Origin: Thermodesulfovibrionia bacterium
GTDB taxonomy: Bacteria; Nitrospirota; Thermodesulfovibrionia; UBA6902
NCBI GenBank assembly: GCA_947258735.1
Contig: CAMYJJ010000032.1
Coordinates: 1 to 17,207, forward strand
Direction: 5' to 3'
Length of the DNA stretch: 17,207 bases
A model generated the notes under the pieces. The model was given only the letters and a program-made list of their open reading frames with translations, did no database searches and was not told the origin of the DNA. Position numbers and translations under genes: made by a program. Position 1 is the first letter of the stretch. Each line of letters begins with the position of its first letter. Of this stretch, positions 1,395 to 7,698 are shown piece by piece.

Positions 1395-2024
1395 CTACAT
1401 ACTTATCCTGTCCGTAACTCCCTGTTCTTTCAAAAGTCGTTCCAGCTTCTCATAAGGCTGCGCTCCGACCAGCCTGTCATTGTTTATCACAAAAGTAGGG
1501 ACAGCAGTAATACCGTTCTTTTGTGAAAGCGACCAGTCCTCATCCACCTCTTCTTTAAAAGACCTCTTAACAATAACTGCTTCCGATTCATCACGGGGAA
1601 GACAGACTGAGGAGGCAATATCAACCAGCGTCGGAATTTTTGCGATGTTTATCCCGTCTGCAAAATAGGCTTTAAAGACCGCGTAGTGAAATGGATCTCC
1701 CTTACCTTGACTTTCAGCCCATTTCCCCAGTTCCTGCGCAAGACGGCTGTTAAAGGTCCTGTTACGGTCACCCAGAGGCAGCCCTGCCTCTGCCGCTGCT
1801 ACTTTCATACGGTCTTTCATATTCTTCATTTCTTCGCTGCTAAAGTTGGAGAAGAGATCTGCAAGAAGGGTCCCCTCTTGCGGTGTTTCAGGATGCAGGG
1901 GAAATGCCCGCCAGCGGACATCAATGTCATATTCTTTTTTCAGCTGTTCAATACGCCCGGTAATGAAATAGCACCAGGGTCAGATGTAATCGGAATATAT
2001 TTCAAGTGTTGGACGTAAAGTCAT
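1395..2024 (-). CDS. Selenocysteine-containing DsbA/FrnE-like thiol oxidoreductase
   Basis: Read from ATG at 2024 through the in-frame UGA at 1982-1980, the frame gives one 209-residue protein, the usual FrnE/DsbA-family length. The UGA is codon 15 and lies in SDYI-U-PWCY, where relatives have the active-site CPWC. So selenocysteine replaces the first, attacking cysteine and C18 is the resolving thiol. Downstream the DsbA landmarks are intact: a helical insertion (about residues 60-140) and the cis-proline loop AVPTF (P176), followed by VINND and VGAQPYE. The start has AAGGAAAGG about 8 bases upstream. Thiol-disulfide or isomerase-type redox chemistry is expected from the family; no signal peptide is seen, so it is probably cytoplasmic. 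Reading only from the internal methionine at 1829 would lose the redox centre, which argues against a simple short gene. A TGT-to-TGA nonsense mutation is the alternative. Confidence 0.85.
1947..1982 (-). promoter_or_regulatory. UGA (Sec) codon and candidate bacterial SECIS in the DsbA-like gene
   Basis: The UGA at 1982-1980 is followed after 20 bases by a hairpin. TTCATTAC (1967-1960) pairs with GTATTGAA (1954-1947), 7 of 8 pairs with one T-T mismatch, around a five-base loop CGGGC. A G occupies the second loop position and the loop begins within the usual 16-37 bases after UGA known for bacterial SECIS elements. A lower GCT/AGC pairing can extend the stem. The hairpin is AT-rich and weaker than the one in fdhA. 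Confidence 0.6.
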
Positions 2025-2047
2025 TTTCTTTTCCTTTCCTTGATACC

Positions 2048-2053: not shown

Positions 2054-2151
2054 AAATATCAATGGAGAATAGACCAGACAGAAAGGATTGCCCCTACAGT
2101 TCAAATGTATGCGCAGGCAACTCCGTATGTTATAATTCATCAGTCAATACG

Positions 2152-2181
2152 GTGACAACGGCTAGAGCAATACTTTATAAT
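2152..2181 (+). promoter_or_regulatory. Candidate promoter of the ORF6N gene
   Basis: GTGACA (2152-2157) and TATAAT (2176-2181) are 18 bases apart. They end 24 bases before the ATG at 2206, which has a GGGGGG ribosome-binding run directly upstream. Hexamer match only. Confidence 0.35.
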
Positions 2182-2205
2182 TGCAAATTAAACTTGGGGG
2201 GCCAT

Positions 2206-2718
2206 ATGACTGAACTTATTCCTTATCATTCGATTCAACAAAAAATATTATTTATTCGTGGGCTACGGGTCATGATAGATGCGGATCTGGCATCGATATA
2301 TGGCGTTACCACAAAGCGGCTCAATGAGCAAGTAAAACGCAACAGAAAAAGGTTCCCTAAAGATTTCATGTTTCCTTTGAATAAAAAAGAGAAATCAGAG
2401 GTGGTCGCAAATTGCGACCACCTGAAGAACCTTAAATTTTCACCAAACTTGCCTTTTGTGTTTACTGAACACGGTGCAATAATGCTTGCATCCGTTTTAA
2501 ATAGTACTGCAGCAATCGAAGCAAGCATTCAGGTTGTCAGAGCTTTTGTAAAACTAAGGGAAATCCTTTCAACTCATAAGAAATTAGCCATAAAGATGGA
2601 ACAACTTGAAAAGAAATTAGAATCACAGGACGAGAAGATTTATACGATATTTGAAGCTATTAATTCTCTTATGGCTCCTCCGGAGAAAAAGAAAAGGAAA
2701 ATCGGGTTTAAAAGATAA
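2206..2718 (+). CDS. ORF6N domain-containing protein
   Basis: The 170-residue protein shows the ORF6N (KilA-N-related) signature. It begins with an IRGLRVMIDADLASIYGV block and a TKRLNEQVKRN block (about residues 18-45). Then come RFPKDFMFPL and the conserved FTEHGAIMLASVLNS segment, followed by a VVRAFVKLRE helix. The last third (about 115-155) is a charged coiled-coil (LAIKMEQLEKKLESQDEKI) and the tail is lysine/arginine-rich. ORF6N proteins are DNA-binding or antirepressor-like proteins common in phages, plasmids and genomic islands; the target is unknown. I chose ATG 2206 because of the G-run ribosome-binding site; an upstream ATG at 2062 gives 48 extra residues unlike the family. It stands alone, with no phage genes around it, and diverges from the DsbA-like gene. 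Confidence 0.82.
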   Translation: MTELIPYHSIQQKILFIRGLRVMIDADLASIYGVTTKRLNEQVKRNRKRFPKDFMFPLNKKEKSEVVANCDHLKNLKFSPNLPFVFTEHGAIMLASVLNSTAAIEASIQVVRAFVKLREILSTHKKLAIKMEQLEKKLESQDEKIYTIFEAINSLMAPPEKKKRKIGFKR

Positions 2719-2799: not shown

Positions 2800-3093
2800 T
2801 TATCTCAACCTTGTTTCACAGTGCCTGCATACGCGTTTATGAATATCTTTGCCGAGATATTTTTTACATAAAGGGCATCTCCAGTTTATGGCTGTAAATC
2901 CAATAAATGCAGATATGACAATGACCTGGGCAGCAAACAGGGTGTTTCTTGAGTATTCTCCAAACAGGTCATGTCGCTTATAAATTACTGCCATTAATAT
3001 AACCAGAAAAAGAGCTATTGCTATAGCTAAAATCTGACGCCCCTGACGCTGCTGGAACTCACGCTTAATCTGTATGACATTGTTTCTTTTCAT
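2800..3093 (-). CDS. Small two-helix membrane protein with C-terminal zinc ribbon
   Basis: The 97-residue protein has a basic N-terminus (residues 1-20), a hydrophobic helix at about 21-38, a polar loop with KRHDLFGEY, and a second helix at about 51-69. It ends in a treble-cleft/zinc-ribbon pattern: C73-x2-C76 and C89-x2-C92. The pattern predicts an inner-membrane protein with both termini in the cytoplasm and one bound zinc. I do not recognise a named family, and no function can be given. The start is ATG at 3093. It is separated by about 280 bases from the binding-protein gene upstream and has no partner in an operon. The clear helices and paired CxxC motifs make a real gene likely. Confidence 0.65.
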   Translation of the reverse strand: MKRNNVIQIKREFQQRQGRQILAIAIALFLVILMAVIYKRHDLFGEYSRNTLFAAQVIVISAFIGFTAINWRCPLCKKYLGKDIHKRVCRHCETRLR

Positions 3094-5007: not shown

Positions 5008-7698
5008 TTACTTATCAATCCTTACCGCACATGATTTATACTCAGGCGTACCGGTAATCGGGTCCTTATGCTCTGACGTAAGTATATTTGTCAATGCATC
5101 TTCATGATGAAAAGTCATGAACACATTCCCCTTCTGGGAACGGTTGGTCACCTTCACCTTCACTTGAACCTTTCCTCTTCTTGAAGAAACCTTCACATAA
5201 TCACCGTCATCTATTTTCAACTGCTTTGCATCAGCAGGACTGAGCTCTACAAGTTCTTCTGAAACGAGTTTTTTGATGCCTATTGCCCTTCTGGTCATGG
5301 ATCCGTTGTTATAATGCTCCCTGATCCTTCCGGTAATAAGAGTTAAAGGATACTCTTTGTCAGCAACTTCACCTGATCCCTTATGATCAAGGGCCATGAA
5401 CTTGGCAAGTCCGCCCGGTCTTGAGAAGAGGTCGGTGTACATCGTCTTTGTTCCGGGATGGTCCTTAGTCGGACAGGGCCACTGCAGGCTCTCTGTCTCC
5501 AGACGTTCATAGCTGATACCGCCATATTGAGGGGTCAGGCTTGCGATCTCATCCATGATCTCAGAAGGATGATTGTATGTCATGGGATATCCCATCTTGT
5601 TTGCCAGTTTGCAGATAACTTCCCACTCTGCCATACCGGCGATCGGTTCAATAGCTTTTCTGACCCTCTGCACCCTTCTTTCGCCATTGGTGAATGTCCC
5701 GTCCTTTTCAGCAAAGCTTGCGCCCGGGAGTATGACATCAGCATATTTTGAGGTCTCTGTATGAAAAATGTCCTGCACTACAAGAAAATCAAGTGATCTG
5801 AGAGCTTTTCTTACCTCATGGACGTTCGGGTCTGTATGTGCCGGGTCTTCTCCAAGGATAAATATGCCCCTGAACTTACCCTGACATGCCATGTCCAGCA
5901 TTTCTACTGACTTGAATCCGGGCGTGGCACTAATAGGCACCTTCCATGCCTTTTCAAACTTTGCCCTCACTGCCGGATCAGCGACCGCCTGGTATCCGGG
6001 CAGGGTTGCCGGAAGCGGTCCTAAATCTGAAGCGCCCTGAACATTGTTCTGTCCTCTCAGCGCCATGATGCCTGTTGAAGGACGGCCGATATGTCCGCAG
6101 AGAAGGGCCAGGTTTGCAATGGCCATTGAGTTCTCAGTACCTGTCTGGTGCTCGGTAACACCAAGACCATAGACTATCATTGCCTTGTCAGCGTGCGAAT
6201 AGAGACGGGCGGCCTCTACGATATCATCTGCTTTCACTCCGGTGAGCTTTTCAACCTTTTTCAGGTCATACTTCTCCACCTGCTCTATAAATTCATCAAA
6301 ACTCTCTGTTCTTGTTTTTATAAACTCCTTGTTCTCCCAGCCGTTTTTCAGGATCACATGGGCCAGTCCGTTCATCATGGCGATATTGCTGCCCGGCTTA
6401 AGGTTAAGCCACACATCGGCACGCTTGGCCATCCAGGTCTTTCTCGGGTCACCAACGATCAGCTTTGCGCCCTTGCGCAGTGCTTTCTTCAGATATAAGG
6501 AGACAATGGGATGTGCTTCTGTCGGGTTTGAACCAAAGAGAAATATCGTGTCTATATCAGGCATCTGTTCCAGAGAATTGGTAGCAGCTCCTGCTCCCAG
6601 GCTGGTGGCCAGACCGGCCACAGTTGGAGCGTGTCAGACACGCGCACAGTTATCAACATTGTTGCTCTTGAAAACCGTGCGTACAAATTTCGCAAGTAAA
6701 AAGTTCTCTTCATTGGTACAGCGTGATGATGAAAATCCGCCTACTGAGTTATTACCATGCTTTTTAATAATCTTCTTGAAATTTTCAGCTGTATATTCCA
6801 GTGCCTCGTCCCAGGACACTTCATGCATCCTGTCGCCCTTTCTGATAAGAGGCCGCTTAATTCTCTCAAAGCTGTGTATAAAATCATATCCGTATCGGCC
6901 CTTTATGCACAGGTTTCCGTGGTTAACAGGTGCATCATATGCAGAGGTGACCTTGACTACTTTTCCGTCTTTGACATTAAGGTCAAAGTTGCAGCCTGTA
7001 CCGCAGTAGCTGCAGGTTGTTCTGACTTTCTTAAATTCAAAGGAGCGGCCCTTGCCCCTTCCCTTTTTATTTGTCAGCGCTCCCGTGGGACAGGTTGAAA
7101 CGCACTGGCCGCAGAACTCGCAGTTTTTTAATGTACGGGGTTTCCCGAATGAGGTATCCGGAAGCGCCTTGAAACCTCTTCCGGTAAGCTCGATCGTTCC
7201 TGCCATTACCACTTCATTGCATATTCTTGTGCACCTGCCGCAAAGAATGCACTTGTTCGGTTCAAAGGTGATAAACGGGTTGTCCTCTCTTATCGGCAGG
7301 TTCCATTTCTCACCGTAAAATCGTGCTCCCTTTACATTATATTCATAAGACAGGTCCTGAAGCGTGCAATTACCTGTTGCCTCACAGCGCATGCAGTCGT
7401 TCGGATGATTGGAGAGCAGGAGATCAATAATATTGGCCCTGATCTTTCTGATTTCATCTGTCTCAGTCTGGATCTCCATATTGTCTGCAACCGGTGTTGT
7501 ACATGCCGTGACTGGCCTGGGAACACGGTCAATCTTAACAAGACAGAGCCGGCATCCGCCGTATGGCTCAAGCCGGTCGTCATCACAGAGGGTCGGAATA
7601 TATACATTTGCCCTCTTTGCAACCTGTAGTATTGTTTCATGATGGCTGCATGCGATCTCTTTGCCGTTTATTTTTATGTTTAATATTTTTTCTGCCAC
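5008..7698 (-). CDS. fdhA: Formate dehydrogenase catalytic subunit, selenocysteine type (NuoG-like N-terminus)
   Basis: Read through the UGA at 6634-6636, this is an 896-residue Mo/W-bis-MGD enzyme oxidising formate or reducing CO2. Domains run as follows. A [2Fe-2S] ferredoxin domain has C38, C49, C52, C66. A NuoG-type His-Cys3 cluster has H98, C102, C105, C111. Two [4Fe-4S] clusters follow (C150/153/156/160 and C193/196/199/203), then the catalytic-domain [4Fe-4S] (C229, C232, C236, C264). Sec355 lies in NCARV-U-HAPTVAGLATSLG with H356 behind it, as in known formate dehydrogenases. The C-terminal dinucleotide-binding domain starts near LTLITGRIREHYN. The start is GTG at 7698 with AGGAGG 8 bases upstream. 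It is the last gene of the operon, 18 bases after the cNMP-binding gene. The NuoE/NuoF partners make an NAD(P)-linked soluble complex likely. The frame beyond the UGA is intact and conserved, so this is not a pseudogene. Confidence 0.95.
6602..6636 (-). promoter_or_regulatory. UGA (Sec) codon and SECIS hairpin of fdhA
   Basis: Eighteen bases after the UGA (6636-6634), GTGGCC (6621-6616) pairs perfectly with GGCCAC (6610-6605) around the loop GGTCT. Two further pairs are possible if one C is bulged. The GGUCU loop and the spacing are those of the well-studied E. coli fdhF SECIS, which SelB binds. Confidence 0.9.

Follow-up and report, generated by a model that had tools for sequence, protein, structure and literature searches.

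An open reading frame on the minus strand of a Thermodesulfovibrionia contig (Nitrospirota; CAMYJJ010000032.1) contains a UGA at codon 15 that almost certainly, judging from sequence, specifies selenocysteine (Sec) at the active site of a FrnE/DsbA-like protein. The original prediction made Sec the first residue of the CxxC motif, and this is borne out by the conservation of the UGA, by a covarying hairpin 3' of it, by a formate dehydrogenase gene with its own Sec-type UGA in the window (the whole stretch of 17,207 nt that was analysed) and by the co-occurrence of selB with the UGA form of the gene.

Reading frame and standard annotation

The features of the gene are as follows:

1395..2024, minus strand: predicted frnE/dsbA-like selenoprotein gene, 209 codons, ATG at 2024, TAG stop at 1395-1397
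1980..1982, minus strand: in-frame TGA, codon 15, putative Sec (U of UPWC)
1971..1973, minus strand: TGC, codon 18, second Cys of UxxC
2033..2041, minus strand: AAGGAAAGG, likely ribosome-binding site, ending 8 nt 5' of the ATG
1497..1499, minus strand: Pro codon 176, VPTF motif, unchanged across all 21 rows of alignment A1
1395..1829, minus strand: 144-aa ORF of standard annotation, starting at Met 1829, without the active site

As had been proposed, the frame upstream of Met 1829 continues through a single TGA to an ATG preceded at 8 nt by a likely ribosome-binding site, AAGGAAAGG. The TGA is the sole internal stop of the 209-codon frame (...LEIYSDYI-UGA-PWCYF...) and falls, again as claimed, on the first Cys of the CPWC motif (codon 15, 1982-1980); distant homologues have Cys at the same column. 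The read-through product matched the Pfam DSBA family (PF01323) over residues 6-198 with 116.7 bits (cut-off 25.6), in line with the claim that the family pattern is kept on both sides of the TGA. None of the NCBIfam models scored above cut-off against the read-through protein.

Under translation table 11 the gene call begins no earlier than Met 1829 and gives a remnant of 144 aa, which covers only profile positions 58-190 of Pfam DSBA at 62.7 bits. This remnant is also the protein recorded in the database for the contig (P0004), so that standard annotation truncates the protein and loses its redox centre, as anticipated. Such recording recurs in the family: among the best-listed 120 of 7671 homologues (P0004 included), 70 have their start beyond the Sec site, 42 show Trp at it and 8 show Cys.

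Fold and family of the read-through protein

An AlphaFold2 model built on the 21-row alignment A1 had a mean pLDDT of 95 and a pTM of 0.89. In this model the first strand spans residues 6-11 and the first helix runs from residue 16, directly after residue 15. By family analogy, Pro176 of the VPTF motif would belong to the cis-Pro loop. Judged by eye from the first strand, which begins at residue 6, the FrnE-type protein is probably cytoplasmic.

Five FrnE entries of Deinococcus radiodurans ranked first in a Foldseek search, followed by SCO1869 of Streptomyces coelicolor. FrnE of D. radiodurans (5cnw, 5cp1, 5coh) also gave the best sequence matches (E 6e-20); its TM-score by query length was 0.81-0.89, and that of SCO1869 (3gl5) was 0.87. 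The CPWC of the FrnE structures aligns with the UPWC of the window protein, the difference being that Sec would replace Cys here. By its modelled fold and its best matches, the read-through protein is a member of the FrnE-type DsbA proteins. D. radiodurans FrnE differs in carrying a C-terminal CXXXXC, a motif that we looked for in the 209-aa sequence and found to be absent. This absence is compatible with FrnE membership, because some FrnE proteins lack the motif according to the available portion of one account (PMC8945050).

FrnE proteins presumably correspond to COG2761. The original prediction held that selenoproteins with a DsbA-like fold are known, and the literature agrees: DsbA-like UxxC selenoproteins entered the catalogues in 2005, when nine sequences from the Sargasso Sea were listed under COG2761 (PMC1088965), and were reported again from bacterial genomes in 2006 (PMC1794560), from GOS samples in 2008 (PMC2398784) and from Asgard archaea in 2024 (PMC11227280), with coverage in reviews of 2022 (PMC9312934) and 2026 (PMC13188914). 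In eukaryotes, the same kind of excerpts describe Sec-containing DsbA of Ciona and Branchiostoma, aligned with the Sargasso Sea proteins by the authors (PMC2874816), name a Sec-containing FrnE in Mamiellophyceae (PMC6627142), give FrnE (DsbA) as a family of SelenoDB 2.0 (PMC3965025) and count DsbA among algal selenoprotein families (PMC7539508). Because DsbA-like UxxC proteins, even under the name FrnE, have thus been published, we regard the window protein as a new member of a known selenoprotein type; the excerpted accounts of DsbA-like UxxC selenoproteins do not name a member from Nitrospirota.

As described, the prokaryotic DsbA-like selenoprotein designated form 1 in the 2026 review (PMC13188914; published representative NIP15863.1) has in common with the window protein PF01323, Sec as the first residue of UxxC and a bacterial SECIS predicted after the UGA. 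Eukaryotic Sec-FrnE/DsbA proteins, likewise compared by description, share the active site U(or C)XXC. Their genes have the SECIS in the 3' UTR (PMC2874816), whereas the hairpin of the window gene lies in the coding sequence.

Conservation of the UGA codon

We scanned GTDB genomes for relatives and kept the best 80 of 342, together with one locus from viral contigs (IMG/VR). The codon aligned with codon 15 is TGA in 80 of these 81 first related loci, all of them distinct, and TGG in the remaining one (L007); chance is excluded by this recurrence at the same codon. In one locus (L005) the region 5' of the site was unreadable and the codon was located by extending the alignment. Further in-match stops among the 81 loci occur only in L047 and L051, both at the gene's own end.

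Loci added later belong to two phyla, Desulfobacterota (that of G016) and Nitrospirota (that of G004), and the UGA is conserved in both. In the window and 163 loci together, the codon is TGA in 143, TGC in 14, TGT in 6 and TGG in 1; a further locus, L113, holds a split gene in which no site was read. Removal of nine exact duplicates from these 164 left 155 distinct sites (window included). At these, the alignment with homologues that had been suggested as a check gives TGA (Sec) at 134, Cys at 20 and Trp (TGG) at 1, which is to say that 20 of the 21 stop-free sites read encode Cys. The Cys forms have the motif CPFC, or CPWC in one distant group.

A tree was built from 153 rows (132 Sec, 20 Cys, 1 Trp) and implies at least 7 changes of state. 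It places the window in a set of seven rows with six Nitrospirota loci, all TGA, with support 100/100. Since the bootstrap had not fully settled and a long-branch warning was raised, we took only this placement and the clustering of the Sec forms from the tree. TGT or TGC in close relatives and decay of the gene in them had been named as grounds for doubt; among the six nearest loci, neither was found.

More distant Sec-FrnE loci have the motif UPFC (L134-L143, L145 and L162-L171, of which L164 has UPYC). This distant UPFC group has a different sequence 3' of the UGA, often GGC AAG/GAG GGC ATC GTC GAA. Bearing on a possible viral origin are the one IMG/VR locus and three phage records at 28% identity.

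Within flanks of up to 6 kb per locus, we found no conserved operon around frnE; an exonuclease-like neighbour occurs in one locus only (L002), ~4 kb away. In the window, a divergent ORF6N-domain gene adjoins frnE (2062-2718, plus strand). ORF6N-domain proteins are usually regulators of phages or mobile elements. Another gene (2803-3093, minus strand) encodes a protein of 97 aa that contains a membrane stretch and has a zinc-ribbon-like end (CPLC...CRHC). A search of this protein against Pfam gave no match, and a relative 66% identical to it adjoins fdhA in L159.

A covarying hairpin downstream of the UGA

A search for a SECIS element 3' of the UGA, also suggested as a check, revealed a SECIS-like hairpin that covaries in relatives and has a small, G-bearing loop:

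1947..1967, minus strand: SECIS-like hairpin UUCAUUAC-CGGGC-GUAUUGAA, 7 pairs and a U.U mismatch, 5-nt loop

The loop, CGGGC, starts 20 nt 3' of the UGA. Counting the U of UGA as 0, the stem is formed by columns 15-22 with 28-35, the U.U mismatch lying inside it. A small loop with a G is given as a feature of bacterial SECIS elements in the Sargasso Sea study (PMC1088965).

To describe the hairpin in relatives, we used 104 sequences, namely all distinct UPWC/UPYC sequences then available; this count is without 11 UPFC sequences, the divergent L144 and the later L162-L171. The codons ATT ACC GGG CGT ATT are present exactly in 40 of the 104, and most of the others have 1-3 differences. At pairs 18-32 and 20-30, 203 of 208 cells are paired, compared with 175.7 ± 1.8 after shuffling; none of 5000 partner shuffles, which ignore kinship, reached 203. 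The pair types are AU 85, GC 11 and UA 3 at 18-32, and UA 90, CG 12 and AU 1 at 20-30. The outermost stem pair is formed in 74% of the 104 sequences and the mismatch place in 38%.

A second alignment, A2, comprised 38 sequences chosen by hand among the first 81 loci and the window, with variants favoured. Here 96.9% of cells are paired against 18-58% in slid versions, and there are 11 double changes against 1.6 ± 1.1 in shuffles, while two of five measures are indistinct from shuffles. The version slid by +3 comes close in covariation score (0.169 vs 0.180), but only 57.5% of its cells are paired, against 96.9%. RNAalifold recovered the same helix unprompted. The folding energy of the window hairpin by itself is unremarkable (z -1.14); the case for the hairpin rests on covariation.

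Codon choice within the hairpin is frozen as well. In 111 distinct TGA sequences, Gly is GGG in 86 of 92 cases (75 of 208 downstream), Arg is CGT in 93 of 96 (33 of 322 downstream), Thr is ACC in 99 of 107 (91 of 230 in later codons) and Ile is ATT in 141 of 159 (60 of 187 in later codons).

Selenocysteine machinery and a second UGA gene

The window contains another gene with an in-frame TGA:

5008..7698, minus strand: fdhA, formate dehydrogenase alpha, single in-frame TGA at codon 355 (ARVUHAPTVAGL)

This TGA lies at the classical Sec site of FdhA, and the same TGA in the same motif is present in L154-L159. Standard calling splits fdhA at codon 355 into ORFs 6634-7698 and 5008-6621. By its motif, fdhA is the second predicted selenoprotein gene of the window's genome, and because its TGA stands in the ARVUH context, this genome very likely decodes Sec. 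The likeness between the two genes lies in the decoding of UGA as Sec; in FdhA, Sec serves as a metal ligand, whereas in the FrnE-type protein of the window it would be a redox thiol analogue. The gene comes after a NuoE/NuoF-like pair and a cNMP-binding-domain gene.

Absence of sel genes had been named as evidence against the Sec reading, yet the near relatives carry them: in the six nearest Nitrospirota genomes, selA was over cut-off in 6/6, selB in 5/6 and selD in 5/6. In G004, a near relative whose record is of chromosome length, selA and selB are close neighbours; this genome also has selD and an fdhA that is 90% identical to that of the window with TGA at the same motif; frnE and fdhA are ~7 kb apart on the same strand there and 3 kb apart in the window. 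tRNA-Sec was recognised in two of the six genomes. In G004 it consists of 53 bases followed by a run of N, and in G005 it scored 55 bits and is cut by the end of a contig that also carries selA and selB. G006 has tRNA-Sec only as a 30-base fragment, and a search of G001-G003 gave no match. The G006 fragment lies near 1509-1539 of L152 and extends up to the anticodon arm, after which the sequence is unrelated; a 27-base partial copy of tRNA-Sec is present on contig C141 of G005.

In wider sampling, selB was over cut-off in most TGA-form genomes of three sets: 27/29, 30/31 and, for Nitrospirota, 10/11, with G004 counted in both the first and the last. In the set that includes the 30/31, 42 of 63 genomes with a match were asked for selB, and one genome counted (G167, with the split gene L113) has its TGA from the search match, the codon itself being unread. 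Four TGA-form genomes lack selB over cut-off (G006, G020, G039 and G419). G020 has a C-terminal selB fragment, G039 has a tRNA-Sec match of 74 bits, and a search of G419 for selD gave none over cut-off; the absence of selB from these four is likely due to gaps in the metagenome-assembled genomes.

Among 198 Nitrospirota genomes, of which 82 have selB, selB was found in 10 of the 11 that carry the TGA form and in 0 of the 28 whose matches lack TGA (Fisher p 1.7e-8), where the selB listing was limited to E <= 1e-70 and would miss selB fragments. The 28 comprise 9 Cys forms (L172-L180), 18 matches known only to be stop-free and one with TAG (G528). We read this as a contrast at the level of the family and not orthologue by orthologue, because most of the nine that were read sit on other branches of the tree. 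Of 11 Desulfobacterota genomes with the Cys form, 8 have selB, and the Cys form thus does not equate with absence of the Sec trait. tRNA-Sec, searched in 40 of the 80 genome loci, passed in 30 of the 40 genomes asked and in 5 of 14 controls, only 2 of which pass selB, so that by itself a tRNA-Sec pass is weak evidence.

Alternative readings of the UGA

UGA might instead be read as Trp, through genetic code 4 or a suppressor, to give WPWC. One locus does have TGG at the site: L007 (JAHJQU010000359.1, codon at 2473), which encodes a protein identical to P0009, a true TGG among the Trp records. WPWC also appears in the 42 Trp records among the 120 best-listed homologues, and 0 of the 17 tabulated genes of the window end in TGA (13 TAA, 4 TAG). 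Against this, of 66 long ORFs counted in the closest Nitrospirota loci, 24 terminate with TGA (some of these being fdhA frames cut at the Sec codon), and within the 17 tabulated genes an in-frame TGA occurs just twice, each time at a Sec-type site. A Trp residue would also be at odds with the Cys found at nearly all stop-free sites, with the covariation of the hairpin and with the co-occurrence of selB. Two of the WPWC records, P0058 and P0032, are 98% identical to the TGA loci L078 and L088, and the W in them is probably a gene caller's rendering of the UGA.

L007 is the only locus with TGG. In the tree it is sister to L008, where the codon is TGA. The genome of L007 (G007) showed neither selB nor tRNA-Sec over cut-off in our searches, and it has selA as well as a TGA in both selD and an FdhA-type gene. 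Because these and the hairpin are kept, the TGG may have arisen recently or through an error in assembly. We rejected Trp as a general rule and, since L007 truly has TGG, keep this reading as a small rival with very little probability.

Equally improbable is that the 144-aa product from Met 1829 is functional and the upstream part unused. Databases do call this ORF (P0004), and the records that begin after the site, 70 of the 120 best-listed homologues with P0004 among them, follow the same pattern. The residues 5' of the TGA are conserved, however: of 133 distinct TGA loci, 132 keep the D and 131 the Y of the SDY motif. The frozen codons of the hairpin also speak against an internal start, and the 144-aa product would lack the first strand of the fold together with the active site.

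The least probable reading is an ordinary Cys gene in decay through a nonsense mutation, or one altered by a sequencing error, to which the stop of the standard annotation at the TGA would correspond. We rejected it on the evidence of the conserved TGA (134 of 155 distinct sites), supported by the grouping of the window with all-TGA Nitrospirota rows at full support and by the intact and conserved remaining frame.

Proposed mechanism and significance

With these alternatives set aside, we hold with high confidence, from sequence comparison, that the gene encodes a probably cytoplasmic FrnE-type DsbA protein with the active site U15-P-W-C18, into which Sec would be inserted by way of SelB and the hairpin. 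A ribosome arriving at the UGA would meet SelB with Sec-tRNA(Sec), recruited by the mRNA hairpin whose loop begins 20 nt downstream, and Sec would be inserted there in place of termination. Going by the family, the group that attacks disulfides would be the selenol of residue 15, located where the first helix starts, and the resulting selenenylsulfide would be resolved by Cys18. This would make the protein a candidate thiol-disulfide reductase or isomerase. A reductase/isomerase role is reported for D. radiodurans FrnE, and its C-terminal CXXXXC is thought to regenerate the enzyme (PMC8945050). As the window protein has no CXXXXC, it would presumably need another reductant.

A more far-reaching proposal is that Sec-FrnE with UPWC forms a distinct FrnE lineage of anaerobes, with a selenium-dependent job that the Cys form lacks, in which preservation of the SECIS hairpin has steered amino-acid changes at residues 21 and 25 and Sec has given way to Trp in L007. 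An example at these residues is a joint change of codons from ATT..ATT to ATC..GTT, which turns Ile/Ile into Ile/Val. We consider this proposal unlikely. If L007 has truly exchanged Sec for Trp, the protein can function with one redox residue.

The gene adds a well-supported selenoprotein to Nitrospirota and shows that DsbA-like UxxC proteins are frequently mis-recorded. Such entries would be put right by a SECIS model or by UGA-aware gene calling for PF01323, which would also offer redox biologists natural Sec/Cys pairs to compare.
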